From Kalmusia sp. IMI 367209 (Eukaryota > Ascomycota > Dothideomycetes > Pleosporales > Didymosphaeriaceae), in NCBI GenBank assembly GCA_027946365.1, contig JAPEUQ010000006.1, positions 2,170,001 through 2,234,000 on the forward strand: 64,000 bases of DNA, given 5' to 3'. Made by a program: the position numbers and the translations under genes. Below are positions 1-64,000 of this stretch, piece by piece. A model generated the notes under the pieces. The model was not told the origin of the DNA. It saw only the letters and a list, made by a program, of their open reading frames with translations, and searched no databases. The stretch's first letter is position 1; each line of letters starts with the position of its first letter.

Positions 1-1256
1 ATACACCTTTTGGTGGACGAAAGCTAAGTTTTATCGAGATGTTTTCCATTGTGGTGATCGTTGAGTTTAAGCTTAGCGTACATTAGACCTTACAGCGTGA
101 CTAACAGATCATAGAGGGGAGTACTATAGGACCCCGTCAGGTGCATACGTAGAGCCTAGTTAGCTAATTTTCTAGGTTGGATCTAGATAGTATACTACTT
201 ACTATGAGGATACTTTATAATTTATGAAGAATATGCTTTTACATTCTTTTTATACGCTATATACTTTTTTATAAAGATAGTCTATTTTTTCTAGTCTCAT
301 CAGATAATTACACGCTCTGGTTAAGCTTTATTAATCATTATTATATCAAGATTATCTAAATCTATAAACTACTAAACATCCTTATCTTGTATTGGGGTTT
401 TGGTTCCAGCTCACACTTGTCTGCTGTTTGTCTACTGTACCATACCTACTATACGCCTATTCATAATCACTTTTTACATCTCCTTACCGATGCTTCTACC
501 GACTGATATACTATCCCGTAAATAAATCATAGCAAGTCCTGCAAATAAGACATGAAGGGGTTCAAACAAAAACTTAGAGAAAGAGACCGATGAGCAGGTG
601 AGGGGATGTTATTTATGGGTGTGAAGCGAAGGCAGTTGTTAAGACTCTACGCTCAATTGGGAATAGGACTGGCATTCAATTTCCACCACAGCTTTAGTCC
701 CTTCCGATCTCCCTTTTGCAAGCATATCTTTAACATCGTGGGCGAACATGCTGATTTGGTGCCATTTCCATACTTCAGACTTCACCAAAGCAATCATGAA
801 CATCACGCAAGCAACCACAGAGCAGAATCCTTAGACACACTTAATTCATTGTATGGTGCCTTTTATCTCCGCCACTGTCACTCGGCACAGCAGAGTACGC
901 ATGCCCAGCTCGGTAGCGCAGTACTAATCATCCCCCCAACGCTACACGCATGCATTAACGTGTCAAACCATACCATACACATACAGCCAATTCCCCCATG
1001 CCCTGTCGCCGAGTAAATAGCTTCTCAGGACGAGCAGAGGGTACCCGTAACCAAATGTATACAGAATGCCCCGACTCCGACGCTAAAAGAAAGGCCAGAG
1101 CGAGATGAATAAACTGATAATGAGCATGCAATCCGGCGTGCGATCCGATGGAGCACGCTAATGAGATGAAAGTGGCGAAGGAAGCCAAGCAGAAGGTACT
1201 ATTATTCCTGCACTCCCGTCGCGATTTCGAGCGCCTGTAGGCAACTTTGAGTATCT
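1..1256. other. AT-rich left flank, no convincing gene
   Basis: The first 600 bases are visibly AT-rich, with many TpA steps and T-runs, for example around 200-370. Such texture is typical of repeats decayed by repeat-induced point mutation (RIP) in ascomycetes. No transposase, reverse transcriptase or terminal repeat could be read. One ORF (606-1016, +, 136 codons) has no family resemblance, no intron signals and a His/Ser-rich composition, so I do not call it a gene. The part next to 1257 must hold the 3' end of the minus-strand gene that stops there. Confidence 0.4.
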
Positions 1257-41077: not shown

Positions 41078-44000
41078 TCATAGCTCTTCATCATCATTAT
41101 GAGTCGACTCTTGGTCGTCAGATGGCATTGCCCACTTCGATGAGTGCATGCCTGTATTGTGTCCTTCAGGTGTGTCTGTGCTAGGCTCTGTCTGTGTGAA
41201 CATCTGCGAGCTAGAGTTCCCAAACTGAAAAGGTGTCGCGCCAGGAAGCAGAGTGGTTGTATTGGCCGGGCCGCTACTTGAGGCCTCCGAGGCCTGGAAT
41301 GAAGGTGACAGCAACTTCTTAGAACCTTCGTCCAGATTAAATTGTCCCGAAAATCTGGAGTCTGCGAGGCTTCGGGACAGTCCAGTAGGTCTCGATTCGT
41401 AGCTCTTAGCTTTACTGTCCCCTCGATTTTTGCCTTTACTATCCCCTCTGCTTTTATGTCCCTGAGGAACCTTTATGTCTCTTGCTACTGATCCTCTCCG
41501 TGGCTCTTTCTGACCTTTTTCTCCGTCATCGTCGCTGTTTTCAGGCGTAACATCGGTCCCTCGCGCATCACTACCCAGTCCTCCAAATATATTGGGAAAA
41601 GATGACCCCGATAGGGGACCAAAAGTACCAGCGTTACCTTGACTAAACAATCCTCCAGACTGTGCTTGAGACAACACCGACAATGGCTTAGCGAATGGAT
41701 TTCGCAACTCTCCAAACCCTGATCCAAACGTGACAGTAGAACCGGGTCCGAAAATGTTACTGCCAGGGTTTTGAGCGTCTTTCATTACTCCATGCTTGGA
41801 TTTAGAGATTGGAGCCTCGTCATCCGATTCAGTATTCGGAGGAGGTGCGAACATATCTTGTGAAAACATATCTTTGAAATTATCAACTTTGAAATTTGAT
41901 GCCACTGGTTCAGGTTTAGCCAGTTGCTTTTGATTGTGCTGGAGCAGCTTCTTAATCTCTTCCTCCTTTTTCTTGAGCTGCGTCTTGAGTTCATCTATTT
42001 CCTTTGTCGCGCTCAATCTCGATAACTTCATTTTCTCGTACTCGATCTGCTGCTTTGAAACTCTTTCAGCATACTCCTGGCGACCTTGTGCTATGAGCTC
42101 TTGTTGATCTGCCTTCGTGGGAGCGTTGGCCAGCTTCTTATTGGCTTCGATTAATTGTTTCTTCAAGTCCTGATATTTTTTCTTCAATTCCTGATTCCGT
42201 TCATATGCTTCATCATTATCCTGTTCAGCTTTTGCAAGGTCGTCCCTATACCTATTATTGGCTTCCTGAAGGTTCTTGTCGATTTCATTTCGCTCTGTAG
42301 TTATTTGATCTCTCGCCTTTGTTGTGTTACTAAGATCCTCTTTCATCCTTTCGAGTTGATCCTGGAGAGATTTTTCCTTTTCTGCGTTACCAACATTCGC
42401 TTCGTTCTGTGCCTTCGCAGCATCAAGTTCACTTCGAAGTTCTTTGTTGTTGACCGCTGTAGAATCGCGCTCTTTTGTTCTCTTTTCAAGTTCTTCCTCA
42501 AGTTCTCGTTTACTTTTCCTCTCAGTAACTACAGACTTGGTAGCTGTATCAATTATCGCATTCAGGTTCTCGGATTTCTTTTTGGCTTCGTCGAGTTCAC
42601 GCGTCAACTTTTCAATCAATGATTGATTATTAGCGAGCTCAGAATCCTTGTTGGCAGTAGAACTATGCTGGACTTTGAGCTTCTCGTTTTCCTCTCTAAG
42701 CGTGTCAGCTTGTTTTCGGTGGTCGTCAAGCTCACGGGTCAATACCGCCAACTTCTCGGTGATAGCCGCATCATTGTTAGCAGTGGACATATGTTGGAGT
42801 TTGGGTTCCCCATTCTCATCGACCTTTTCGGCATGTGAAGTATCGTTCTTAGCTGCTGAATCAAGTTGCGCTTGGAGCTTCGTCTTCTCAGCGCTCAGCG
42901 TGTCAGCTTGCTTCTTGAAATCATCACGCTCTTGGTTGACTTTAGTCAAAGAGTTGCGGATTTCTTGGATTTCCAAGCTCCCTTGGATGTTCTCGTCTCT
43001 CGAAGTTTTGGCTTCGTTTAGGGCATCATCACGTGCCTTGACCAATTCATCGACACGTTCCTGAAGAGATGTCTTCTCTTTGTGCGCTTCGGTGCTTTTC
43101 GCTTCACGTTCTTTCAGCCTCGCTACAATCTCAAAGTTCGTGGCTTTCCAGTTGCTGCACTCTTCCAAGGCTTCATTTCGCTCCTTGCTGGCAGTAGATA
43201 GCTTCTGCTCGAGACTCTTTTGACTTGCTTCAGCTTGTACCATCTTCTGTTTGACCTCTCTTTGTGCTTCATCTCGCTCCTCACGCGTCGTTGATAGTTG
43301 CTCCTCGAGACTCCTTTGACGCACTCCAAACTCTGACGTCTTTTGCTCGAGCTCTTTCTGGACCTTTTCCTGCTTGTTGCTTGCAGTGAATAGCTGGTGT
43401 TGGAGACTCTGTCGGTCCGTTTCAAGCTGTTTGATCTCGTGTTTCAGAGGCTCGATCTCTTTCTCAAAGTTATCCCGCTCCTTCCTTGAGGCGGCAAGCT
43501 CATCCCGGATATCCTTTTGAGTTGTTGTGAGGTTCTCGTATATCTCCCTCAAACTAGTCGCCTCTTTCCGATTAGCGTCTCGCTCACCAGTCACAATGGT
43601 AAGCTGCCTATCGAGTTCATTCCGAATTTCTTCAAGTTCGGTTACCTTCTGTTTCAGAGGATCGTGTTTGCTTTGAGCATCGTCCCGCTCCTGGATAATG
43701 GTATCAAGCTGATTCGCCTTCTCTTTGTGGCGATTGAGATCCTTACGAAGTTGGTATGCCTCTGTGAGGCGTCCCGCATTTTCTTTGTGCTTCTCTTTCA
43801 GGTCTTTCTCTAGCTTTGTAGCATACGATCGTGCCTCTAAATAGGCCGCCTTCAATCCGTCGTACGGCATCTCCGTTGGGTTTCGTGGCTGTGGTTTTGG
43901 GGATGTCTGCATACCAATACTAGATGTCTGCTCTCGCTCTGTTTGTTGGCCGTGAGAGTGGGTCTCGTTTTGACGTTGGTCGGGAGTTTGATCCTGACGC

Positions 44001-44488
44001 GAACTCACACCCTGATCGTGACTCTGGTTCTGGCTTGCGATGTAGTGCTCGCCTCGATTCAGACCCTGGCTTTCATTTTGACGTAGATCTTGACTTCCGC
44101 AGCACTGGAGCTGCACGAAAATGGTTGGGTGGTTGCGTCCGTCTTGACCAGAACCGTCGAAGTTCATCTCAGTCTGCTGTTCGTGCTGCCGTGCTCGGTC
44201 GTTGCGCTGAGGTTGTTCATTGACACCTCCATGTGGCTGCGTAGCATTATTTCCTTGCGGATACATTTGTTCGTTTCCTCCAGCACTCGTCTCGTTGTCT
44301 CCCAACGGTGGATGGCTCTCACCTCGTCGGGGCGGTTTATCTTTCTTTTCGCAATATGTACGGTAAGAGAAGACGAAAAAAGCCGTCACGAGATTGATAA
44401 GAGTGAAGAGGATAACCCAGTCCGTAAATTCCATTCCAGGCTCCTGCTTCCCATTGGGAGGGTCATTTTCAGGACGTACCTCACTCAT
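41078..44488 (-). CDS. Membrane-anchored long coiled-coil protein with FG-containing tail
   Basis: Single exon, 1136 residues. One clear transmembrane helix lies at about residues 24-43 (WVILFTLINLVTAFFVFSY), with only a short segment before it. A Gln/His/Asn-rich linker follows to ~210. A very long Glu/Lys/Gln/Leu heptad region (about 215-860) is typical of extended coiled coils. The tail (about 870-1100) contains scattered Phe-Gly dipeptides (NIFGPGS, VTFGSGFG, GTFGPL, PNIFGG, PFQFGNSS) and ends acidic (DDQESTHNDDEEL). I know no named family with this exact plan. It could be a tether at the ER or nuclear envelope, or a golgin-like protein; the FG tail suggests contact with transport receptors. 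All of that is inference from composition. Confidence 0.72.
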   Translation of the reverse strand: MSEVRPENDPPNGKQEPGMEFTDWVILFTLINLVTAFFVFSYRTYCEKKDKPPRRGESHPPLGDNETSAGGNEQMYPQGNNATQPHGGVNEQPQRNDRARQHEQQTEMNFDGSGQDGRNHPTIFVQLQCCGSQDLRQNESQGLNRGEHYIASQNQSHDQGVSSRQDQTPDQRQNETHSHGQQTEREQTSSIGMQTSPKPQPRNPTEMPYDGLKAAYLEARSYATKLEKDLKEKHKENAGRLTEAYQLRKDLNRHKEKANQLDTIIQERDDAQSKHDPLKQKVTELEEIRNELDRQLTIVTGERDANRKEATSLREIYENLTTTQKDIRDELAASRKERDNFEKEIEPLKHEIKQLETDRQSLQHQLFTASNKQEKVQKELEQKTSEFGVRQRSLEEQLSTTREERDEAQREVKQKMVQAEASQKSLEQKLSTASKERNEALEECSNWKATNFEIVARLKEREAKSTEAHKEKTSLQERVDELVKARDDALNEAKTSRDENIQGSLEIQEIRNSLTKVNQERDDFKKQADTLSAEKTKLQAQLDSAAKNDTSHAEKVDENGEPKLQHMSTANNDAAITEKLAVLTRELDDHRKQADTLREENEKLKVQHSSTANKDSELANNQSLIEKLTRELDEAKKKSENLNAIIDTATKSVVTERKSKRELEEELEKRTKERDSTAVNNKELRSELDAAKAQNEANVGNAEKEKSLQDQLERMKEDLSNTTKARDQITTERNEIDKNLQEANNRYRDDLAKAEQDNDEAYERNQELKKKYQDLKKQLIEANKKLANAPTKADQQELIAQGRQEYAERVSKQQIEYEKMKLSRLSATKEIDELKTQLKKKEEEIKKLLQHNQKQLAKPEPVASNFKVDNFKDMFSQDMFAPPPNTESDDEAPISKSKHGVMKDAQNPGSNIFGPGSTVTFGSGFGELRNPFAKPLSVLSQAQSGGLFSQGNAGTFGPLSGSSFPNIFGGLGSDARGTDVTPENSDDDGEKGQKEPRRGSVARDIKVPQGHKSRGDSKGKNRGDSKAKSYESRPTGLSRSLADSRFSGQFNLDEGSKKLLSPSFQASEASSSGPANTTTLLPGATPFQFGNSSSQMFTQTEPSTDTPEGHNTGMHSSKWAMPSDDQESTHNDDEEL

Positions 44489-45209
44489 CTGGTGTTTCTC
44501 TAATTTCCAATTGCTGAGTGATGTTGGTAAACACGTGCCCGTGTAGTTGAAATCGCGATGTTAATGGGAATCGTGTGGTTGATAGGTCGATCGAGTGGTG
44601 ATGTGGTTGATCGGGTTGAGTAATCTGGAACAGTTAATACGATACAGGAGTGCAGTGCGCGAGAAAAAGCTGGAATCGCACCACGTGCTCGAAGTTATCC
44701 ACTTTTACGCTCTATCAACCGTGTAATCTGTAGGTGCTGTGGTTAGTAAATGGGTGAAGGCTGATCTAGTGAATAGAGATTGAAAGTCAAAGTAGATGAG
44801 CGGATATATAACGGTGAGGTGGAGCGTGCGAAATAAAGCTATGGTCGCACAATGTGCTTGAAGCTATTCACGGGTGAATTGTATGTGAACTAAATAGATA
44901 TAATCAAGCAAGGACTTTTAGAACACGAACAACTACTGATGCCCATCATCGCAGAATTTAAACCTTGTTCCTCAACGGTACAACAGGCCAACATGAGTGC
45001 AGTTTGCGGAAACACGACAAAGAACCACGCAAGCCATTACTACGTGACAATCAAAACAAAACAAAGATATGTACGAAGCGAACGTTACGCAATTGGACTA
45101 GATCAAGTAATGGGTAAAAACTGAATGCGTATCTCAGATTTGTTACGTCCACCGTCAACAGTGTGCGTGGTAATTATAGCCTATGTACATGATCAAGTTG
45201 TGTTCGTGC
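44489..45209. other. Intergenic region
   Basis: 721 bases between two minus-strand genes: the promoter of the coiled-coil gene and the 3' end of the fusion oxygenase gene. The ORF 44939-45124 (+) is unsupported. No other feature seen. Confidence 0.5.
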
Positions 45210-48200
45210 TTAACGTAGAGTATCACCCCTTCTGCTCATGCCACCTGCCACAGCACTAGCTTGTAGCCTAAAAGCTCTCAAGCTCCCTGTCATGCTTCGT
45301 GAGCGCATGTGCGCTGCGTCTATCGATGGTGCCTCATGTGTTGTTGCTTCTCGGATAGGCAGGCGCTGTAAAGATCGCGCCCGATCGTTCATTGACAGCA
45401 TACCATTAACACTGTGAGGTGGCGATGGAGGCCTAGACTGATTTGGTTTAGGGCGTGTATTCATTTTGGTCATCAAAGCCGACATCGTGGCAGCTGGTGA
45501 CAGTTGTGTTGGTGTGGTGGCCATGTCTTCAGAGGCACCGGTGTTGCGACGTTGTAGGCCTGCGCCTGGCATATGGTGATTGTCCGTCACTGTGTTGCGT
45601 CTGGCAAGATTGCCACGCGCACCTGCAAGCGATGGCGAACGGCTCGTAGAACGGCTTGACGGTGGTGTTGGAAGCCCATTGCTTGCTTGCGGTAGGGATC
45701 CATAAGTATGCATCAGCTGTTCAAGATTGATGGACTGAGGCAGTTTGCTCAGCCGACGTATGGCTCGCTTATTGTCGTTAATGAACGTCGACATGGCATT
45801 GAGTGCATTGTTTTGATTGTGTTGCTCGTACGCTGGAGCACCATCAGATGTTTCCATAGCTCTCACTGCATGCTGTTCGTTCAGGTCCATGTTGCGATGT
45901 GATCGCAAATCAGCATGCTCGAGGTTCATTTCGATCTGCGAGACGATCTGGTCAAAATCCACGCGTTCACCAAGAGGTTGGTAGGCTGGCGCCACCCCAA
46001 TGGTGGCATTCTGGGACAAAACAAAGAACGAGCCGTTGCGCACTTTCCTTTTCAGGATGTTCCAACGAGCGCGAGCCGGATTTCTCTCTAGTCCCGGCTG
46101 GAAGACCGAGTGTCGGGCAAGCTTAGCGTAGAACCCTTCCAGTCGTTTCGCCATCCGCTCTAAGACCTGCATAAGGAATGCAGCGAGAGCAGCTACACGT
46201 TGGCTGTCGGAGGTAGCGTCGAGCTCCATGATAGTCCCGAAGGCATCCATCCCAGCGCATGCTTCATCACGGATGGCTTCCAGAAACTCCATGTCGTATT
46301 GCACAGAGCGTTGGGCATATGCAATGATTCCTTTTTCATGATGCCGCGCAGACTCACTGTTACAAGTGAACTGACCAATCTGTGAAATCTCGTTCGACGC
46401 TTTCATGGCATCGTTAGATCCTTTGGCACGAGCGATGATGCCAAGAACGTCGGGAAGCTTCGACGGTGTCGTAGATGAAGCAGCATTTGCAAAAGCGAAT
46501 GAGATCTTGAGATACATCTCTTGTAATTTGGGGCCGAATAACGCTGAGAAGGCACCTTGAAGAAGTCGAGATTGGTAGTGGTAGAACCTGCGAACACCGC
46601 CCATATTGAAAAGTTCACCCTGAAACCAAACGATAGATGACTCCATTATCATACCGACTTCAAAGTGAGAAGCGACGACTTGCTCAGTAGAAACTCGAAG
46701 AAAGCTGTTCCACAAATCGTACAGCATGCCGATTTCTTCCGAATGATAAGCGGGCTTTGGTGTCAGCTCCCCTAGGTAGTACTTTGTGAGCAGCGATGAC
46801 ACCTCGGGATTATTAGTATGCGCAAGGAGATCGAAAGATTTTGAGCAATCGACACCTCCATTAGACTTGATAATGTTTGTGCCACCTGGATGCATAGCGC
46901 AGAAGTCTGTGACATCGTAAACTTTACCATGCACGCCAATCCAAACTCTAGAATCGGGTGTATGGCCAGTATGGAGCGCAAGCTGAGAGAGCGGAATAGT
47001 TGGCTGATTGCACGGTAATGGTTTGGGAGTCATGAATACGTCGAGCATGAAGCGCCGCTCAGCAAAGGCAGTGGTGAGGATAGATTCCACGGTTTCCATG
47101 GTCGGCGAGCGGTGATTATACAGCGCTTTGCGAATGCCGGACATGACCGAGTCGAACACGCCGACTGATCCGCAGACGTAGAGGTAGCCACCAATGCCAC
47201 CTTGTTTCTTGCTCATGACCTAGACACATGTCGCAATTAGTAAAACTCTCTTCAGCTTGACAGTGCGAACATATCCTCACCAGATCGCAAATAGATTGCC
47301 CTTGCTCGACGATGAGGTTATCGATATAGCGGGGTGGAGTCTCCTTCTCGATAAGATCCTGAGAAATAGGATCGTATGCTAGGCCTCTTGAGTCGCGGGA
47401 GAAAGCAGTATGGACTTCCATCAGGCCTTCATTGACGTATTGGCGGAGCTCTGACTCATAGCATAGCTTCTCTCGAGACTGCACTCCAAGATAGAGCGTA
47501 GTTTTCCCCCAGGTTCGTCCACAGCGGGCTTGCCAAAAGCTTCGAAAGGGAGCGATGCCGCTGCCGCCAGCAAAGAGTGCAACTGGCGAGGTATCGTCGA
47601 ATGGGAGTTGGAATGCAAAAGGCCTTGAAACACCGAGCAATAGCTCCTCATCATCGAGAACATCCAGCTCGTCTCCTACTGGTGGGTTGAGGAAGCCGCT
47701 GCTGACACCGTGCCGAATGACCTTAGAATTGCCGGCAAAGGTCGAGCAGAGGTCGTAGTCAGATCGCGAAACTGTCAGGTCGACCGTACCTATTCTTGTT
47801 AGAAGAGTAACATCAAGAAACGTCACGAAACTTACTTGGTAAAAGTTCATCCGAGTGTGTGGAGATGCTGTACGTCCTAGGAACTTCTACGGGGATCAGG
47901 TCTGCGAGCCATGAGAGATTGCCAGACAGGTCAAAAGCTTGATCCCAGATGCGAGGAGGGGTGTCCTGAACGGCGGCTTGAAGAAGGTCACCGAGCGATG
48001 CGCGTACTGGCCATTCATTTGTCGCGAGCACCTGGAGAACCGTGTTTGAAGAGGCTCTAAGCATCGTATGTAATTTTGTTGCAAGCTCCTGCGTAATTGG
48101 AGCTAGATGCCCCTTACGCAGGATATCGATGACCGTAAGCCGAGGCTTTCCAGAGCGGGTCACACTGGCTATGTGATCAGCATAGCGCGACCAGACACGG

Positions 48201-50326
48201 TCGAGTGAGACCGCATCTTCAAGCATCGAGTCTAGGCCAAGGGCAGCAGCAACCTTTGCGCATTCGGTCCAACTGTTCATAGGCATGATTGCAAGTCTAT
48301 CGCCCGGTTGAAATGTGATGCCTGCCTCCTGAATGTCGAGAGTGACCATAGCGATAGATCGTAACGGATCCGAGTCGACATAGTTGCGACTCAAGATGCG
48401 GCCTCGGTAACGACATTCCTCAAATGTTCCACGCATCTCATGTGGTTCGATATCTCGATTCCCTCGGAATGGCTCGAGGCGCTCTTTCATGGATGCAGAA
48501 AATTCGTGATGTGTCTGCTCCCAGGGTCTCATGTCGTTCGCAGCCCCGGAAGCGCCATTGGTCTCGGTGCGACCAGTCTTTCCAGCACACTCAAGAAGCT
48601 AAAACATCATTAGCATACTGCCAAGCCTAGAATGCACAAGATGCCTGACTTACACCGAAGACTTTGTAGCGATGAACGCCCATGAAGCCACGCTCACCGG
48701 TGTATGCTTCCACTACTCCATCGAGAACACCAAGGAGTCTTGGATCTCCAGAGGCTTTGACGTATTCCGGAATGCTGTAGTGATATTCAATAGCGGCAAT
48801 GAACGCACGGAGGTTTGAAGGGAGCCATGCTCGTAGATGAACGCCTTCAGCACCGAGGAAGGAGTCATATTTCTTCCGCCCGAGAAACGCATCCATGACA
48901 AGATATCTATAAGAAGTTAGATGAGCAGAGAATAGAGAAGGACGACGTACGGAGGAAATTGGAGGCCAGAAGTGGCAGGGCATCGCTTTGACAATGGGGC
49001 AGAGAACTTTGCCCAACGGACCCATTCTGCCGGAGAGACGAAGTTTTCTCCTGATCCAGCCAAGGAGATCGTGTGGAATGCCTGAGGCATACGTTCTAGA
49101 ATCTCTTTGAGTCGGATGAGTTCACGTAGTAGACCTTCATTATTCCTGTTCATCACATGCTCCTGGCACGCAGCAATAGCGTCCGGCCCATGCTGGAAGC
49201 TCGCAGATGTCTCTGCACATCCTTTTAGGAATGCCCTCTCCGCACCATCGCCAAACATAGCCCACCGTAGTCTCTACATGCTGTCAATTGTGCTATTCAA
49301 GGTGTCAGGAGAAACGTACAGTGTTGTCAAATCGACCAACATATGGATAATCAGAGAGGGGATCGATGTAGTCGACATTGTAGGAAGACTGGTCGAAGAA
49401 GGTGAGATGGGGAATTGACCGACCCATGCGGATGCATATCTGGACATAGGGCAGCCCGATGCTACGTGGGATGCCTTTAACCTCGTCGCCGAGGTCGTCA
49501 CTCATTGGCACACCGTCCAATCTGAGGGGTTTCGCAGAAACATTGATCCCCTCATTCCCGTCATGCCTCTCTTCGTACCGGTAGATAGAGCAAAGCATCC
49601 CGAGAGAAACAAGTGCAGCCCACAGCGCTTTGTCGGGAATCACGTCCGCACTTCCCTCAATGATAGGAAGTGCGGCTACTGATTCCCTTACCCTACCGCG
49701 TGCAATGCACCCTGGCATCCTTTCGCAAAGGTCCATCCATACCCTCCCCGGGGAGTTTCGTAGTGCACCAGGTGCTTCACTGGTGTCAGGGGGTTGGAAG
49801 CCATACTCAACACTGAGGTAGCCATCGCGCCAGCCGGTCATCGGGCCAACCTCCTCGGCTCGAAGGATGACTTGCCGAGCAGGTGCCCCCAAAGCAACAG
49901 CTAGTAGATCTCGTTCATCGATGTTCAACTTATCAAGACTCTTTACACCTTTAGCATTTTGTATGGCTTTGATCTCATCCATTGAGGGTACGTTGGAGTA
50001 GAGCAACTCGTTGATGGCTTTACGTTCCCTTCACCGTGTTAGTGAATATAACGAAACTTGCCAATCTCAAAGTACCTTTGACGGAGAAAGTCTTCTACGT
50101 TAGCGTCATGCGGTATCTAGAAACTATAAGCTTGGGGCGAAGCAAATTTGAATGAGATGCAGCTCACTCCGAACGCAGCGTGAACGTCTCCCGGCTGTGC
50201 AAATCCCGACATAGTACATCCTCGAGGGCCAGTTCTGCTGCTTCTTTTACTTCCGGGAGCAGATGCTGGGCAGACGCCTCCCACTCGACCAGACACTGGG
50301 CACCCCGAAAGTGACTTCGAGGACAT
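45210..50326 (-). CDS. Fusion: IDO-like heme dioxygenase + FAD/NAD(P) reductase + cytochrome b5
   Basis: Predicted 1588 residues from eight exons: 50326-50168, 50116-50076, 50028-49320, 49273-48951, 48906-48654, 48598-47836, 47789-47281 and 47219-45210. Seven introns are 44-61 nt with GT-AG ends. Residues ~150-495 resemble the indoleamine 2,3-dioxygenase fold: GIPRSIGLPYVQICIRMGR, ERMPQAFHTI, LPSNLRAFIAAIE...YVKASGDPRLLG, then His489 in GVHRYKVFG where IDO has its proximal heme His. Residues ~540-950 form a P450-reductase-like FAD/NAD(P) module: FQPGDRLAIMP, R736-TYS-ISTH (FAD), GGSGIAPFRSF near 824-834 and YLYVCGSVGVF near 931. No flavodoxin domain is present. Cytochrome b5 follows at ~995-1073, with His1029 in MHPGG and His1053 in LAHTNN, 24 residues apart as in b5. 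A helical, then Ser/Pro-rich tail ends the protein. Likely electron path: NAD(P)H to FAD to b5 to the dioxygenase heme. The substrate is unknown. Confidence 0.85.
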
Positions 50327-53300
50327 CTTGGATTAGACAAAAAGATTTTTGGGTAACCTGCCCTTTGAAAAGAAGAAGAGAATGGAAAGACTTGCAAAGT
50401 CTGATTGAATTAAGGAAAGTCCGTCAAGGATGAAAGTCCATAGGAGGGAGCATCAAGCCACTGAGGATGAGGTGCAGAACATGCCTCTTTGAGGTCGTCG
50501 GGCAAAAGCGCAGAGTCGCTCGGCAAGGCTTGCTTTCCCATGGCGTGCCAAGAGTCTTTTCCGCCATGACCATGAAGACAGGAGAAACAAGGGCAGGTAC
50601 AGTCTTGGCTGGAACAAGAGACACTATGTACGGTGGAGCCTCAGCCGCCTGACTGGTGGGCGGAAGCTGGCCCGCCACAAGGGAAGAGCGGGCAACACAG
50701 ATGCTCGAGGAACATCTCGTGACGCGAGCGGTTCATTAGCCGCTTCGAGAACAGTGGTGAATTTTTTGGTTACCCATGTGTGTGAAGCGACGCATGTACT
50801 TACGCGTCACTCCAGGGGAGTGGATGTGAAAGCGGCGCGTGCGGGAACACTAGTCCCAATTCGCTCGAAATCGAAACTCCTCATGTTTGCTTTGCACGTC
50901 AACTTTTCACCTGTCAACTGTTTCTCCGTAACATTACCTTTGCAACGCACGATACAGGGCATAAAAGTGTGCGAAAAGGCGTCGTGGCATGCCTTGACCT
51001 CGAAACAGCACAGCGCCTTATGCCATTGTTTACTAAGATGAGCGCGGAAATTTCGACCACCTTCTTGCGGGCGGTGATCGCAAAAATTAGACGTAGGCAC
51101 TGTAAATTTCACATTGACGCTATGTAGGCTAGGAGCGACCGGACAGCATGCACAGATGCCTTATCCGCAATTAGGCCAGGGCGTTTCAAGCATGACGCCT
51201 ACGCCAAGGACGCGATGGCGCGTCTAGAAACTGTTACAGTTCCAGAGCGACAGCCTCAAATCTCGACCCCAATCGATGACTACAAAAAATTCGCAATTCA
51301 GATCACGTACACGGACGTTCTGAAGGTGCCATTGTCCATGATCACATCGTGGAACGCTGGTTGAGCGCAGAGCGTCTAACGAACCTAAGGGGGGGACCCG
51401 AACGCAGCCCAGAATCCGCACACTATCAACCACACTGAAAGTGCGGCACGCCTTTGTGACTTTACGAATGATTTTCGGAGAAAGTGAATTTATACATTCC
51501 AAAAAATCTTCGAAGGATGGACTCGTCAAGCCCATAAACGGTTTCTTATGCCTTCTCTCAACGACACTTCAATTCAGCGCCAGAAACTACTCATTTCTTG
51601 CGCTATTGATCAGCGAATTGGTGTCGACAACTGAGCCACAGGCTATGTTCATGAGAACGTGGCGAGGAAGGATGCACCTATTATATTTTACGTGGAAGGC
51701 ATAAGCGCACAGCTAATGACCACAATGTCACTGTAGGCGGCAAAGTCCTCAATTTTCTTTTGGTTTAGCAACTGGCATAGAAACAGCCGGTTGCTTCATC
51801 ACAACAAGGTGATCTTTACCAGTCGCCCTGGTTCCGATGTTTATACAACGTGTGTTCGATGCCGAAAGCGATGAGACGCTTCAGGAATCCTATCAAAGCC
51901 TGAGAAGCTGACCGTCGGCGTACGAACTTGAGGCCCTGTCATGGCTCACGGATGCAAAAGTATGTTGGGTCCTTGCCGGCTGCCGCTTTCGCTATATTTT
52001 GTCTAGCTCTACGTAGCGCCATCGAAACTTGCATGACACTAAGGTCCGCTCTTGCAGCTGTCAAACTAGCCGGCGGACGCACTACACCAATATTGCATTT
52101 CATAACTCCAGGGGCTATGTGGCCAAAGTCTTGTATGAAATAGGTATGGACCGCTGAACTCTTCATGAAACCATATTCTTTCCACTGGCTCGCCTGGCTG
52201 TGACTGAATACAACGCGTTTCTGATTCTCGAACATGATGATGCGCTTCAACGTCGCCTGAGTAATCCTGCCGAAGCCCCAGAAACTGACTACGAATCCTC
52301 GATCATCATGCCCCTATCTGGGTGTATCAGACCATTTGCCGGTAACCAACCTTGCCATATCCTCTGCGTCTCTTTGTTGCGCCATTAGGAATAACAAAGT
52401 TGATAATGACCATATATTTAATGTGGATACATTGATCTGGACCCTATCAAGGGTATACCTAAGATTGCTTCGCCTACAAAAAGAGCTAAGCTTGTCATCA
52501 TTACTACTCCATGTTGCGTCCCTTGAGTACTTTTTAATGTGAGTGACCTATGCCACTTAATGAGGTAAAGGTGGGACTTCACTACCTGCGGCTCCCAGAA
52601 GTTCGTCAACGATGTTTTTAGAGGGCCTGGGCAAGATGCCAGATGCTCCTTTGCCGGTTTCAAGAAGCCATGATCATTCACAAAGGTAATACTAGAATCC
52701 GTTTATCGCTTAAGAAACGTATCATCCGAGGACAATCTTCTCTGACTTCCATTGCACTACATCTAGAGTCACCACATCTCGCACAGGAAATCATTCGTCA
52801 TAACGACCCTCCCTCGACCACGACCTCGAACAATTTCTCTTTGATCATATCGCCCGGATGAACGAACCCCTCGTTGCGCCAGGAATACCCAACGCATCAT
52901 TTTTTGACGAGTATACAACCCGGGGCTACAATCCTTGGGAGCAATCGCTGTTCCGGTGGATATGTTATAGAAAGTTACGAGCGTGTAGGCATTAGAGAGT
53001 TCTGAGACGGCGGCAGAATCCTGGATGGTGGCGAAGACGGCAGGATCGATAGCTGCTTGCTTCAAGACACCGAACGAGACCGGAGTGCCCCTCCTCTTTG
53101 TCTTTCCATCTTCCTCTCAACGCCGTGAAAATCATACTAAGCCTTGCTTGCACTCGTAGTTGAGAGCTATGCCCATAGTAAGTGAACAATATCTGATTCG
53201 GATTGAAATAACAGAATTTCTACGCTGTGGGTAAGATTGGATAGTGCAGAATGGCTGAACAAGTAGGAAGGACACGCTCGTAGATGGTAAGCTCTGACCG

Positions 53301-57641: not shown

Positions 57642-59484
57642 TTAAAATGCACCTGCCTGCTTCTTCAACACGAACGCGCCACGCTCCTGTTGGAAGTTAG
57701 CATCCACAATGCGCACTAGAGTTGGAACACTCACCATTGTGTTGACAAGAATGTATCCAGACTTGAACAGAGCGTAGCTGCTCCAGGTGCCGACGAAGTC
57801 AATAACACCGCCACCAGCCTGGTTGTCATCCTCGGGATAGATGTCAAAGAATCCGACTTCCTTTACACCAGCGCCAGTGGGATCCGATGGGATTGACGAA
57901 ACATCGAGAACGCGGAATCCAGTGCCATAGTTCGACTGATACGCGAACCCATTAGCGACGTACTGGTTGTGGTCGATTCCCTTGGCGCCGGATTTGTAGT
58001 AACCCGTCTGCTTCGGCGCCTTGAGTGATGATATATTCCAGATGTAAGTGATGGGGTTTCCAGATGCGCCCGGGCCGGTCTTGTCATACTCGTCATACTC
58101 GTCGTCAAGGAGGAGGAAGCGCTGGTCTTCAACGTCAAGAAGTGCACCTTGGTGCGTGTAGGAAGCTCCGGTGTAAGAGGTCCTGGAAATAACAACGGGG
58201 CTCTTCTTGTTTGTGATGTCGTAAATGGTGAGAGTGTCTTCATTGAATCCATAGCAAATCTCGCGGCCGTTGTACTGGGTATCCGGACCCTTGTAGAAGA
58301 CACACTGCGCGTCGTGGACATATCCGTCGGCAGAAGCACAGCCGGCGTTGGTAGGGTTCGAAGGGGTCGAAATGTCGATGAAAATGATACCTGGAGGAGG
58401 CCATATCAGTGTGAGCAGACAAGGCAAGTCAAATAAACAAGCGCGATAGATCTTGGCATAACGATAGTGGCCAACGGATACGTACCAGACTTGCAAGCAT
58501 CAGTTCTCGGTTGCGCTCCGACAGAGTAAATGTAGTTGCCCTTCGGGTTAGTGACAACGTTATGAGTGCGACCCGAAGGAAGCTTGTTGTAATGGCCAAC
58601 GAGACCCTGACCAACAGTGTTGGTGAATGTCACGGGTTTGGCAGGATCAATCGTCAAGAGTTTCTGTAACAGAGTTAGCTATGGAATCTATGGAAGCTTA
58701 GTAAGCTTCTTACCTTCCAATCGAAGATCTGGATGCCGTGACCGGAAGCTTCCTAAATATCACAGTCAGAGACTTGATCATACTTTAGGCATGAGGTACC
58801 TGAATGTGTCAAGTGGCTAATGATCCTTCTCTGGAGCCCATGCCATTCGAGACGTATTCGGCTTGTACCGTGAACACACATACACTCCCAATGATGACAA
58901 AGTCATTGTGACCTCGGATCTCGCGCCACTCGCTAGGGGTCGAGAACTGAGGCAGGCGCCCTAAGTAGGAAAGTTTGCCAGCCTTGGTGATCTCCGCGAA
59001 GGCGGTTCCATCCGACTGTCCGATGGCAACGAATTCACGGCCATCCGAGCTCGTCCATCCCCAAGATGAAGAACCGAAACCTTTCGTGCTGCCTAGTGCA
59101 GAGTGCGAGAGGAAATGGTAGAGATCAATCTAGTCAAATATTAGCGCAGGGTTGATAGGCGTCGGCAAGAGAGGACCAACATTCTTGCACCTGAACTTGT
59201 CTGCACCAGAGATGGCGGTACCGTTGGTGCAGGCCACAAAGTCGGCGATCTCAGCGTACTGCTCCGACGCATAGACACCGGCTGCTTCGTGCCTAGCCCA
59301 AGATTCCTTCTCGTGTCAGTGAAGTAATTGTGTACATTGCAGGAAGGCATACCCTCTTGAGCGCAACATTGTTCTGATGCTTGATACCAGAGTCATACAG
59401 CTGAGCGCCCTTGACTTCGTCTTTGGGTAGCTCTCTAGCAGCCGCAAGGGCGCTCAATGAGAGAAGGGCAGTTCGCATGAACAT
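57642..59484 (-). CDS. Secreted LVIVD / choice-of-anchor-B-like beta-propeller protein
   Basis: Predicted 473 residues from seven exons: 59484-59353, 59306-59181, 59129-58884, 58752-58714, 58663-58486, 58390-57735 and 57686-57642. The start MFMRTALLSLSALAAARELP is a signal peptide. Repeated beta-strand units follow, with GHGIQIFDWK, GIIFIDIST, LTIYDITNK and FRVLDVSSIP, characteristic of LVIVD-repeat propellers. His-bearing elements (THNVVTNPKGNYIYSVG, VHDAQCVFYKGPD, THQGALLDVEDQRFLLLDDEYDE, DHNQYV) recur as in the choice-of-anchor B family. Fungal members are often labelled regulatory P domain-containing and are extracellular with unclear function. A 39-base exon and a 45-base last exon are needed to keep the frame. 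The intron 58753-58883 is longer than its neighbours (131 nt). Confidence 0.8.
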
Positions 59485-61311
59485 GGCGGCAGGATCGTCT
59501 CGAGGAAGTCGAATAAAAGGACCTAAAGAGGCTTTTACTGCAGCCCCATACCGGCCTTATATACCAAACCGTCGTAATAATAGTGGCATTATCACGTCTT
59601 GAAAAGATGGCTCTGCAATGTCCAAGGCGGCAGGTGGACAAAGTGCCTTCCTAATTCCGATGATACAATCAGTCCCAAGCCTTCGGCCCTGATGAACATG
59701 GCAAACAAGCGAAGAAAGGTCGTTGAGTGTTGATGGGCGTTTGCAAAGTCACATTGGCCTGTATAAATTAAGTAAAGCTTGCCCAGTACTCCCGAACAGT
59801 GTAATTGGAAGGAGGAAGAATTACACCGGCCTTGGCGACAGCGATACCCCATCCTCGGATTATGCTGAGCACCATGTGCCGAGAACGCCCAGATTGCCGA
59901 TCCCGTAGGCTTAACTTCGATAAACGTAAAGTGCATGCTATACGGCGCAGCGGGCATCCCGTTTTCTCCCACTCCAGCGATGTGTTTGACCGCGATAGAG
60001 TCTGGTTGCTGTCTCGCTTTGGCCCCGGCTGACTGGGTCCACGGGCGATCGCATGGACACCAAGTCGAACGGCTTCGTCCGATGCACGCTGGCTCTAATG
60101 GAAGGTGCTTGTGGGTTTCATGTTCTTATCGGGGCCCATGGCGACAGCGCATAGTTAGATTAATTGGTGTGATAGCGCAATCGCTAGGTCGACTGAGCAA
60201 AGAAGTATTGGAGGTCTGTGTATGAGACTGCCTAGATGGAGAATCTTCGCCGATCCGCCAGGACCTGATGAGTCGGAAGGATGCTTCAGCGAAGCTAAGT
60301 AGCGAGTGGGAATGGCTATGGTCGCCGCAAGGCAAGACACCTTTGGACAGCCGGAGTGGTCGTCCCCAGAGCAGCGGCTTTTTGAGGCTGAACACCAGTA
60401 CCGAGATGAAAGACAGGCCACATTCGTGCATATTACTGATGCGCGGGGCGTCGGTCGTCGGCGTATTTAGGGAGGTGCACACTGCAAACACTTGTCACGA
60501 CTGCAGAGAAAGAAGGCACTAATCCCCAAAAGGTTTAGCGAATTGCTTAACGCGGTCCCCGTTTCACTCACGAGGAGACGTATTCAGACGGTGTTGCTTA
60601 AGCATTTCTATATATCTTAATGATCGAATAGGTTGGAATATGATTCAATGCATCGCGATGCATGCAGGGTACCCTTTTCTTGTGTGAATGCGCTTGCTAA
60701 GTGAAATCACCCAGCACTCCCCCTTAGAAAAATCGTGTCCAGAATTTCGACTTCGGCTTCGCTTCTGAAGAATCGATTCTAACCTATATTCCACTGAGTT
60801 TTGGTGTTAGCAAGAGCTAAACTATACGATAGCCCAAAAGATATGGGTGCATAGTAAAATATCAGTGCAAGGCGCTACCGCGTGACAACGTGTGAGCCAA
60901 GACTGTACGTGTGATCTATAGAGCTGCATTTACCAGGGATTATTTACGACTATCGTGATACCTCTACAATTGTGTGCTTTCAGCAAACAATCATTAGATA
61001 AGGATTTAAGACTTATTCTTTTACGTTCATGTGTAGTTAGCCGAGTTGGCTCAAAAAAACTTTTAGTCACTTATCTTCATGTTTGCTAATCCCACCGCTA
61101 AGTATAGGTTAGGTGGTGACCGCAATGCCACCGTTTGCGTTGTGATCTAACTATAACTAAGGCCGTGGTCATTTCGAACACCTAAGTGATCTCTTCGTTT
61201 GCAGGCCAGTAGGCTGCTGATACAGGCAGTCAAAGTCTGAGTCAGATATAAAAGGCTGCAAGTCGTCCGGATCATACTTTTCGAACTTCATTCCATTTCA
61301 GACTTATAACC
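59485..61311. other. Divergent intergenic region
   Basis: 1.8 kb between the divergent starts of the LVIVD-like gene (minus) and the NLR-like gene (plus). ORFs within (59592-59972 -, 60126-60491 -) carry no domain and sit in sequence that becomes AT-rich after about 60540. Promoters of both genes are expected; no RNA gene seen. Confidence 0.4.
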
Positions 61312-64000
61312 ATGATGACTGCTGGGCTTGCTCTTGGTATAGTTTCACTAGGTATTACGGTCTCCAGAGATTTGCTCCACTACTACAGCGACTGGAAGGG
61401 TTACAAAGATGATGTACGACAAGCATACGAAACAATTGATGCCCTGAGCAAGACATTCGCGTTTCTAGATCAATCATTGCAGACCGGACCTAAGACAGAA
61501 ATCTCCCTACACACTGTGGAATGCGTCGGAGCGTGCGAGGATGGAATTCAACGGCTGAAACAGAAGCTGAAAAAGATTCAGAGAGAGTCGCCACAGGATT
61601 TCCAAAACAAGCTCAAAGCTATGCAACTTCGTACGATCTATCCATTTCGGAAAAGTACACTCCAAAAGCTCAAAGAGATTGTACAAGATTTGATCCCGCG
61701 ACTGAGCTTAGCCATACAAGCTACGACACTGGACAATGGGAATGTGACTAGGACTGCGGTCGCTGCGGTCGAAGTCGCTGTTGGTGGAATTGAGCATCTG
61801 ACCAAGGCGATTAACGCATCCTCAATAGACATCCACCACATGGTAGCAGCGGCTGCGGCAGACGTCAAGGTCATACTGAGTACACAAGAGGCCAGAAAGC
61901 TGGAGAATATACTCACGTGGCTGTCCGCTCCGGACTCATCAACCAATCACGCAGCAGCGCGCGCCAAACATGAACCGGGAACTGGACAGTGGTTTCTCAA
62001 GAGCACGGAGTACCATGAATGGCTACTTGGTTCCTCTCCACGACTCTGGCTTTACGGGAAAGCCGGTTGCTGCAAGACCGTGCTCTGCTCTACCATTATT
62101 GAGGACATGCGACACCGATTGTTGGGACAACAAGGCACTGTCCTTGTGTACTTTTATTTCACATTCTCGGACGTACGAAAGCAGTCTTACTCTAGCTTGC
62201 TCCAATCAGTGATTACCGAGTTGAGCCGAGATCGACCTATCCATCCGAGCCTCTCTACAGCTTACGACAAGTACAAACCGCATGCTGCCAATCTCAATAT
62301 CCTCGAAGACATTACAAGAGATCTCTTCAAGAGAGTCGGATTGACATATCTCATCATAGATGGCCTAGATGAATGTCCAGAAGAGCAAAGAGAGGAGGTG
62401 ATGCAGGGGCTAAAACGCATTTTCTTGTTGGAAAAGTCAAGGCTCCTGATTACAAGTCGCAACGAGTCCGATATTGCCGATTGCATGACTGCTTGGTGTG
62501 AGAGAAACTATTACATTAACGAAGAGTGCGTTAATGCCGACATCGACACATACATCAAGAACGCTTTAGCTACTGACAAACGACTGGCTTGCCTATCCGT
62601 CACCACCAAGGAGGAGATTCAGGACGTATTTCATCAAAAATCAGAAGGAATGTAGGTACTCACTCAAGATTCGATAATCCATAAATCATTTGGCCAACGC
62701 TAACGCGGTTCACAGGTTCCGATGGGCGGCATTGCAGCTTCAAGAACTTCGAAACTTGAGGATTCGGAAGGCGCAGTACATCTCGAACAAACTCAATGAT
62801 ATGCCACGGACACTGGACGAAACGTACAATCGTATTTCGTGCGCAATCGACGAAAGTTACTCGGATGAAGTCCGGACAGCTCTTGAATGGATCGCCTTCA
62901 GCCAGAGGCCTCTTTCAGTTGCCGAACTAGCAGCGGCATGCAGCATCCAAATCGGTAGACAGAACGAGGTGTCATTGGAGGAAGGAGATCCAAATGTTCT
63001 CACCGGCATTATTGACGCAATTTCCTCTCTGATAACGACAAGGTGCAATTCGGGCGGCTCGCTCCCACCTATTCTCGTCGAGTCAGATGATGACGAGCCG
63101 CGTGTTATCAAAAGTCGGTACATCGGGAAACGTTACCCACGGAAGTTTGATGCTGTATGCTATACTAAAGAAGTAAGATTTGCTCATTTCTTGGTGAAGG
63201 AGTACCTGATGTCAAGCCGTCTGCGGCAATCGAGCTCTAAGGCGTCCAGGTTCGCGCTTTCTAAAGCTGAAGTCCATCACCATCTTGGTCAGAGATGTTG
63301 TGCATACCTCCTGTATGTTTGCAAGCGGTCGGAAGTACAGGGGTGGATTGACGAGGAAAGAATGCCGCATCCTGGTAATATGGATGAACATTTCCAGAAT
63401 GAGGGTAACGGAGAAAAACCAGCGGACGAGATCTTCCCAGAAAAGTACCTAGTGAATTTCACTTCGCCGTACCCATTGTTGCCTTACGCGACCCAACAAT
63501 GGTTTAAGCATGTAAAGTACGCAGAAGAGAACAGGGGTGAAGAGATTGGCTCCACGCGCTTCCAGGACACCATCTTGGAGGATGACCGAGTGAGAATATC
63601 ATGGCTACGCTTCGTCGATCCGAAAGGCGGTGATTATGTGAACAAGCGTGCGCTTTGGTGGGGGCAGGGCCAAGAACGTCTCCTAGGTTATGAAGGCGTT
63701 TGGCACGATGATACAAAGGTGCTTTATTGGGCATCGCTCCTCGGACTTCGCCAGACAGTCTCATTACTCACTTCAAGTCCCGGTGCCGATGTGAATCATG
63801 TCGGCGGAAGATTCGGTACGGCAATTCAGGCTGCGTCGTACCATGGTCATGAAGATATCGTGGGTATATTGTTGAGTAGTGGTGCTCAAGTCAAAATCGA
63901 AGGTGGCGAATTCGGATCCGCAGTTCATGCAGCTGCCGATCTCGGGCACCGGAATGTAATGGCCAAACTCCTTCTCTCGGAACCAAACGCAGTCAATATC
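61312..64000 (+). CDS. NLR-like protein: Helo-like N-domain, NACHT NTPase, ankyrin repeats (3' end outside window)
   Basis: Exons 61312-62651 and 62716 to beyond the window edge; the second exon is open to base 64000. Residues 1-~200 match the Helo-like N-terminal domain of fungal STAND proteins (GLALGIVSLGITVSRDLLHYY...YKDDV). The NACHT NTPase starts with GQWFLKSTEYHEWL, has the P-loop GKAGCCKT at 249-256, and Walker B YLIIDGLDE at 346-354. A winged-helix-like region (VRTALEWIAFSQRPLSVAELAAACSI) and a linker follow. Ankyrin repeats begin near TAIQAASYHGHEDIVGILLSSGA and SAVHAAADLGHRNVMAKLLL. Proteins of this plan are linked to nonself recognition and regulated cell death in fungi. The usual Gly in GxxGxGKT is Cys here. 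The 64-nt intron joins EGM|FRWAAL in phase. Confidence 0.9.

Follow-up and report, generated by a model that had tools for sequence, protein, structure and literature searches.

Indoleamine 2,3-dioxygenases (IDO, PF01231; human IDO1 and IDO2 and the fungal IDOs) are heme proteins with a GTGGT loop and an arginine for the tryptophan carboxylate, which is numbered Arg231 in human IDO1 (hIDO1). MarE, tryptophan 2,3-dioxygenase (TDO) and PrnB are His-ligated heme-dependent aromatic oxygenases of the same superfamily fold. The gene described here joins an IDO-type domain to a reductase and a cytochrome b5 (b5) domain in one chain. It lies on the minus strand at 45210-50326 of the window, a stretch of 64,000 nucleotides from Kalmusia sp. 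IMI 367209 (contig JAPEUQ010000006.1, positions 2,170,001 to 2,234,000), and its eight exons encode 1588 amino acids. Judging from its domains and relatives, a multidomain IDO-fold oxygenase with its own electron supply is probably the best explanation of this fusion. Statements from papers cited by PMC number refer to excerpts of those papers.

The fusion shares the superfamily fold of MarE, TDO and PrnB by way of IDO. It differs from IDO in that the GTGGT loop is missing and Arg231 is without a clear match, identity in structural alignment is about 20%, and the fusion adds the reductase and b5. Its PA-x-SG stretch (residues 402-406) resembles PASG of human TDO and DATG of MarE (PMC11904535), and its second loop is charged, as is SLGGR of MarE. 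According to the excerpts, MarE, TDO and PrnB use external reductants, whereas the fusion has a reductase module in its chain. With cytochrome P450 reductase (CPR), the reductase of nitric-oxide synthase (NOS) and sulfite reductase, it has FAD_binding_1, NAD_binding_1, the RTYS region and the Cys and Asp in common; unlike them, it is without the flavodoxin (flavin mononucleotide, FMN) domain, and b5 comes next instead. P450-BM3 relays electrons through FMN. P450-BM3/CYP505, with oxygenase and reductase in one chain, presumably works like the fusion, but there the fold is that of a P450 and the relay is FMN, whereas here the fold is that of IDO and b5 stands in place of FMN. The likeness to P450-BM3 drawn in an earlier sequence-only reading is loose, with no FMN domain in the Pfam scan. 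Ncb5or and nitrate reductase pass electrons from flavin adenine dinucleotide (FAD) to b5 on a single chain, as the fusion would do. These two use an FAD domain of the b5-reductase type, unlike the fusion, whose FAD domain is of the CPR type by Pfam. The b5-reductase fusions covered by the excerpt of PMC4557397 are also of a different kind.

Gene model and domain order

The exons lie on the minus strand at 50326-50168, 50116-50076, 50028-49320, 49273-48951, 48906-48654, 48598-47836, 47789-47281 and 47219-45210. Splicing reproduced the continuous eight-exon frame that the sequence-only reading had proposed, with 4767 nucleotides including the stop codon and no internal stop. All seven introns are GT-AG, with AAG as the acceptor in intron 2. 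His489, RTYS from residue 736, GGSGIAPF from residue 824 and His1029/His1053 were all found at the positions claimed. The single gene that the reading had assumed is borne out by full-length relatives across fungi that share the IDO, FAD/NADPH and b5 parts. One of them, P0001 of Karstenula rhodostoma, is 90% identical to the window protein in an alignment that covers 100%. A search for relatives in a large collection of proteins, with 7991 candidates scored, returned at least 367 matches at E <= 0.001; the best 120 of them were examined. All four Pfam domains occur in 117 of these 120; P0024 is without IDO, P0064 without NAD_binding_1 and P0066 without Cyt-b5. Because P0001 aligns over 100% and 117 of the 120 listed relatives carry four domains, the window gene does not consist of mis-joined neighbours. 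No tandem repeats were found in window positions 44000-52000.

The Pfam order in the protein is IDO, FAD_binding_1, NAD_binding_1 and Cyt-b5, each above its curated cut-off. The hidden Markov model check of the N-domain suggested by the sequence-only reading gave a significant IDO match over residues 139-372 (E 6.1e-9; 35.6 bits, the cut-off being 26). The IDO-fold heme domain takes up approximately residues 100-515 (48539..49931). TDO (PF03301) gave no Pfam match in the window protein at E <= 1, and a search of the genome at E <= 0.001 was likewise negative. NCBIfam matches fall mainly in the reductase part, the best being PRK06214 (sulfite reductase subunit alpha; E 2.6e-21), with 75.9 bits against a model cut-off of 432.

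Reductase and b5 domains

The CPR/sulfite-reductase-type FAD-binding domain covers residues 563-762 (47752..48397; PF00667), with RTYS at 736, and in a PDB search the structures nearest to the reductase segment, with E ~1e-13, are those of NOS, CPR and sulfite reductase. NOS identity, taken from database names, was rejected, as NOS matches the reductase part only. The NADP-binding core covers residues 822-884 (47386..47574; PF00175) with GGSGIAPF and Arg855, and the b5 domain covers residues 1005-1071 (46764..46964; PF00173, E 1.5e-14). Active-site counts here and below draw on up to 184 relatives (120 from the first list and 64 new ones from a second), with gapped rows dropped per position. 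Arg736, Tyr738, Ser739, Arg855 (184/184 rows), Cys935, Asp979 and Phe981 are invariant in the rows that reach them. Ser739, Cys935 and Asp979 are presumably the CPR hydride-transfer residues, and Ser-Arg at 854-855 is taken as a mark of NADPH preference; position 854 is variable, with Ser in 102 of 120 rows. The b5 ligands are invariant (His1029 in 180/180 and His1053 in 182/182 rows). No flavodoxin/FMN domain was found among Pfam families at E <= 1, nor in the Pfam columns of the relatives listed.

A self-sufficient electron chain may reasonably be proposed from this arrangement. NADPH would give a hydride to FAD, which would pass electrons one at a time to the heme of b5; this heme would then reduce the IDO-type heme. 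The reduced IDO-type heme would bind O2 and oxygenate a bound substrate, probably an aromatic one. The fused b5 would serve as the one-electron relay, the role of FMN in CPR, NOS and P450-BM3. If this is true, the chain has b5 in the place of FMN after an FAD domain of the CPR type.

Active site of the IDO-type domain

The fold of the N-terminal domain is that of IDO, and its pocket is probably related, as the aligned residues suggest. Asp416 (48891..48893) aligns to hIDO1 Asp274 in the profile alignment and is invariant (183/183 rows). His489 (48672..48674), the candidate proximal heme ligand, is invariant as well (182/182). Both lie in the part of the fold that binds heme in IDO. KTGRTETNG at residues 502-510 (48554..48580) is the presumed counterpart of the GTGGT/S loop, on the grounds of motif and spacing. 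In this loop K502, G504, R505, T508, N509 and G510 occur in 183/183 rows, Glu507 in 181/183 and Thr503 in 162/183, which gives the consensus K-[TSIA]-G-R-x-E-T-N-G after the His across relatives. Residue 503 stands 14 residues after the His in 170 of the 171 pattern-matched rows and 30 after it in the remaining one; the His-to-loop pattern was unmatched in 14 of 185 rows, query included. The heme ligand of human TDO is His328, likewise 14 residues before Thr342. This Thr342 sits in the GTGGS loop (PMC11904535).

A GTGG motif is absent from the N-domain sequence, and K[T/S]GRxETNG stands after the His instead. The position of hIDO1 Arg231 falls in an insertion or gap of the profile alignment and opposite Glu386 in the single-sequence alignment, where Glu occurs in 119/182 and Gln in 45/182 rows. 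With the GTGGT/S loop replaced and Arg231 without a clear counterpart, these are therefore not the usual residues of tryptophan dioxygenation. Arg400, invariant in 177/177 rows, could be a substitute binder of the tryptophan carboxylate.

The same genome (42.8 Mb in 30 contigs) holds two separate canonical IDOs, both of which have GTGGT as well as an Arg within a stretch that contains Phe. The profile-profile alignment to these two was weak, with a two-sequence template and doubtful past mid-domain, and only motifs were read from it. In addition to these two, the genome has a diverged stand-alone IDO-like gene on contig C1 (3257000-3260500).

Weighing the possible functions

Several points weigh against an IDO-fold oxygenase with its own electron supply. 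Alignment by hand places His489 three residues away from hIDO1 His346, and the profile alignments do not extend as far as this His. The modelled IDO-type fragment (predicted local distance difference test, pLDDT, 76) stops just past the heme His, without the loop, and support comes from sequence and fold, with models of fragments only. In the excerpt of PMC11791213, PrnB, which has the IDO fold, gave no product with cytochrome b5, CPR or any donor or oxidant tried.

In IDO dioxygenation a single priming electron suffices for continuous turnover, and in human IDO monooxygenation a reductant, ascorbate or NADH, is needed for turnover (PMC12921851). A permanently fused reductase suits a reaction that uses up electrons at each turnover, and the fused electron chain together with the changed loop would be expected in an enzyme that consumes reductant. 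If the fusion is an IDO-fold oxygenase with its own electron supply, monooxygenation using NADPH at every turnover has somewhat less than an even chance, dioxygenation in which the reductase would restore a heme that has become ferric is possible, and some other reaction is unlikely.

Taken by itself, an NADPH-driven monooxygenase with an IDO-fold, His-ligated heme, whose reductase and b5 are used in each turnover, in effect like MarE with ascorbate, is a tentative explanation. It agrees with the reductant requirement of human IDO monooxygenation. MarE with ascorbate favours monooxygenation, and changing the TDO loop from GTGGS to GTGGA or SLGGS shifts some reactivity to monooxygenation (PMC12312684). 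The MarE loop residue Arg235 touches a heme propionate (PMC11904535), and in the presumed loop of the fusion family Lys502 and Arg505 are invariant, although the equivalence of the loops comes from spacing and motif and not from a model. With similar reserve, the fusions may be seen as His-ligated IDO-fold monooxygenases, self-sufficient and driven by NADPH, that form a class widespread in fungi and in which a CPR-type FAD domain would feed a fused b5 that replaces FMN, and the electron supply and charged K[T/S]GRxETNG loop would redirect dioxygenation to monooxygenation. The determinants of mono- and dioxygenation in IDO-like heme enzymes are only partially understood (PMC12921851). An IDO-fold domain fused to an apparently complete electron supply is kept across fungi, and the choice between the two reactions is therefore testable in one protein.

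A true L-tryptophan 2,3-dioxygenase that forms N-formylkynurenine, with the fused reductase and b5 merely keeping the heme ferrous, is unlikely. The IDO fold and profile match, the conserved His and Asp, the naming of b5 as an IDO reductant in the title of a paper and the invariant Arg400, which could hold the carboxylate, speak for it. However, K[T/S]GRxETNG stands in place of GTGGT/S, hIDO1 Arg231 has no clear counterpart, the genome already has two canonical GTGGT IDOs, and one reducing equivalent starts continuous dioxygenation (PMC12921851). The same evidence does not support the sequence-only reading where it described an IDO with its heme kept ferrous. Of its wider claim of an IDO with reductase and b5, the IDO fold, the FAD/NADPH module, the b5 ligands and the single gene are supported, while true IDO identity is not; the residues compared do not establish a tryptophan dioxygenase in particular.

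It is less likely still that the protein is not an oxygenase, the IDO-type heme sensing O2, NO or redox state or binding heme for regulation, with the reductase and b5 serving other acceptors. The conserved N-terminal Cys-Pro motif, the helical C-terminal domain and the altered tryptophan-pocket residues would suit such a role, but few parts of the protein vary as little as His489, Asp416 and the putative pocket loops, a constancy that catalysis would explain more easily. That two or more genes were fused by a wrong splice model is extremely improbable, for although the window gene model was predicted from DNA alone, many other genomes have an annotated full-length relative, and the genome of the window has a second copy.

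Distribution and history of the family

The fusion belongs to a family that, from the relatives found, is a real, old and widespread one in fungi. By organism names in the database, the best 120 relatives belong to Dothideomycetes, Leotiomycetes, Sordariomycetes and Phaeomoniella. A tblastn search located a second fusion copy with the same domain order at C9:790799-795981 of the same genome, with 52-54% identity to the window protein over the IDO, reductase and b5 pieces and 43% over the C-terminal part. The search with this copy gave at least 335 matches among 7987 scored candidates, and the 120 listed added Polytolypa, Fonsecaea, Pezizomycetes, the chytrid Gaertneriomyces and basidiomycetes (Rhizoctonia, Serendipita, Marasmius, Mycena and others). 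P0240, P0267, P0276, P0288 and P0266 all have the four Pfam domains (IDO 47-66 bits), FAD_binding_1 being slightly below cut-off in P0267 and P0266. A profile search for stand-alone relatives of the IDO-type domain (at least 111 matches, 7999 candidates) gave only what appear, judged by identity, to be fusion-family members or exon fragments; it needs shared five-residue words, and distant single-domain kin could escape it.

A quick maximum-likelihood tree was made from 49 rows, hand-picked from the two lists and including both genome copies, with a midpoint root. It places the window gene and 20 Pezizomycotina rows (SH-like approximate likelihood ratio test, SH-aLRT, 100) opposite 28 others, among them the second copy, the basidiomycetes and the chytrid; the rows of the chytrid and of Geoglossum have long branches. 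P0293 of the second list groups on the window-gene side. Both sides include a member from each of Lentithecium, Amniculicola, Periconia, Paraphoma, Leptodontidium and one Pseudogymnoascus. This pattern agrees with a single duplication within Ascomycota and, apart from that, mainly vertical descent, with inter-phylum transfer as a possible alternative.

No published description of the fusion was found among the papers listed in searches of the open-licence full-text literature, and print elsewhere is possible; no assigned function was found for the family. Its members are named in databases as sulfite reductase, nitrate reductase, related to nitric-oxide synthase, or NADPH-hemoprotein reductase. 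A published count of Aspergillus IDOs set its E-value limit at 1E-30 (PMC7448278), and six fusion proteins scanned with Pfam gave IDO E-values of 6e-9 to 3e-18. With such names and such a limit, the family is easily overlooked. Magnaporthe NOL2 and NOL3 match Neurospora NCU05185 and NCU05006 (PMC4948021), which are possible members of the fusion family.

Other parts of the protein and neighbouring genes

About 500 residues follow the b5 domain; these, like the N-terminal Cys-Pro motif, come in addition to what the sequence-only reading described. Residues 1078-1320 (46017..46745) form a C-terminal helical domain (model pLDDT 81.6 for 1078-1432), which had no Foldseek match at E <= 0.001 and no Pfam match at E <= 1. 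The domain is filled in 19 of 19 inspected second-list rows, those of basidiomycetes and the chytrid included, with 227-251 residues. A BAR/F-BAR fold was considered for it, with a fold match that fell short of significance. A variable Ser/Pro/Arg-rich tail (45213..46016) completes the protein, as seen in its composition and conservation profile. At the other end, residues 9-37 (50216..50302) hold a Cys-Pro motif (CPVSGRVGGVCP...GPRGC). Among rows with a letter there, of 184, Cys9 is kept in 113/117, Cys19 in 111/114 and Cys37 in 124/128. Its form is CPVSG...CP...GPRGC, and some members, among them P0248, P0256 and the chytrid P0288, are without all or part of it. The Cys-Pro pairs resemble heme regulatory motifs, and the motif may bind heme or a metal.

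The neighbour Pfam scan covered 10 of 29 open frames of at least 200 amino acids, from 32957 on, excluding the fusion's own frames and one overlapping frame. No kynurenine-pathway gene was found among these 10 frames; matches were to aldehyde dehydrogenase, IF-2B, M28 peptidase, NACHT and ankyrin. An LVIVD-like gene (Pfam LVIVD slightly below cut-off) lies at 57645-58499 (-) of the window, upstream of the fusion by about 7 kb and co-directional. Another lies at 394-1107 (+) of the extracted piece L021, about 1.2 kb upstream of the second fusion copy and co-directional with it. The two proteins are 52% identical, and the genome has at least three such genes; the neighbour was either carried along in the duplication or is functionally linked. 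At 61252-64000 a NACHT-type (NPHP3_N) frame is followed by an ankyrin-repeat frame, perhaps as a single fungal NLR-like gene. Adjoining the fusion gene at 41081-44560 (-) is a coiled-coil-like frame of 1160 amino acids with a sub-threshold CENP-F match.

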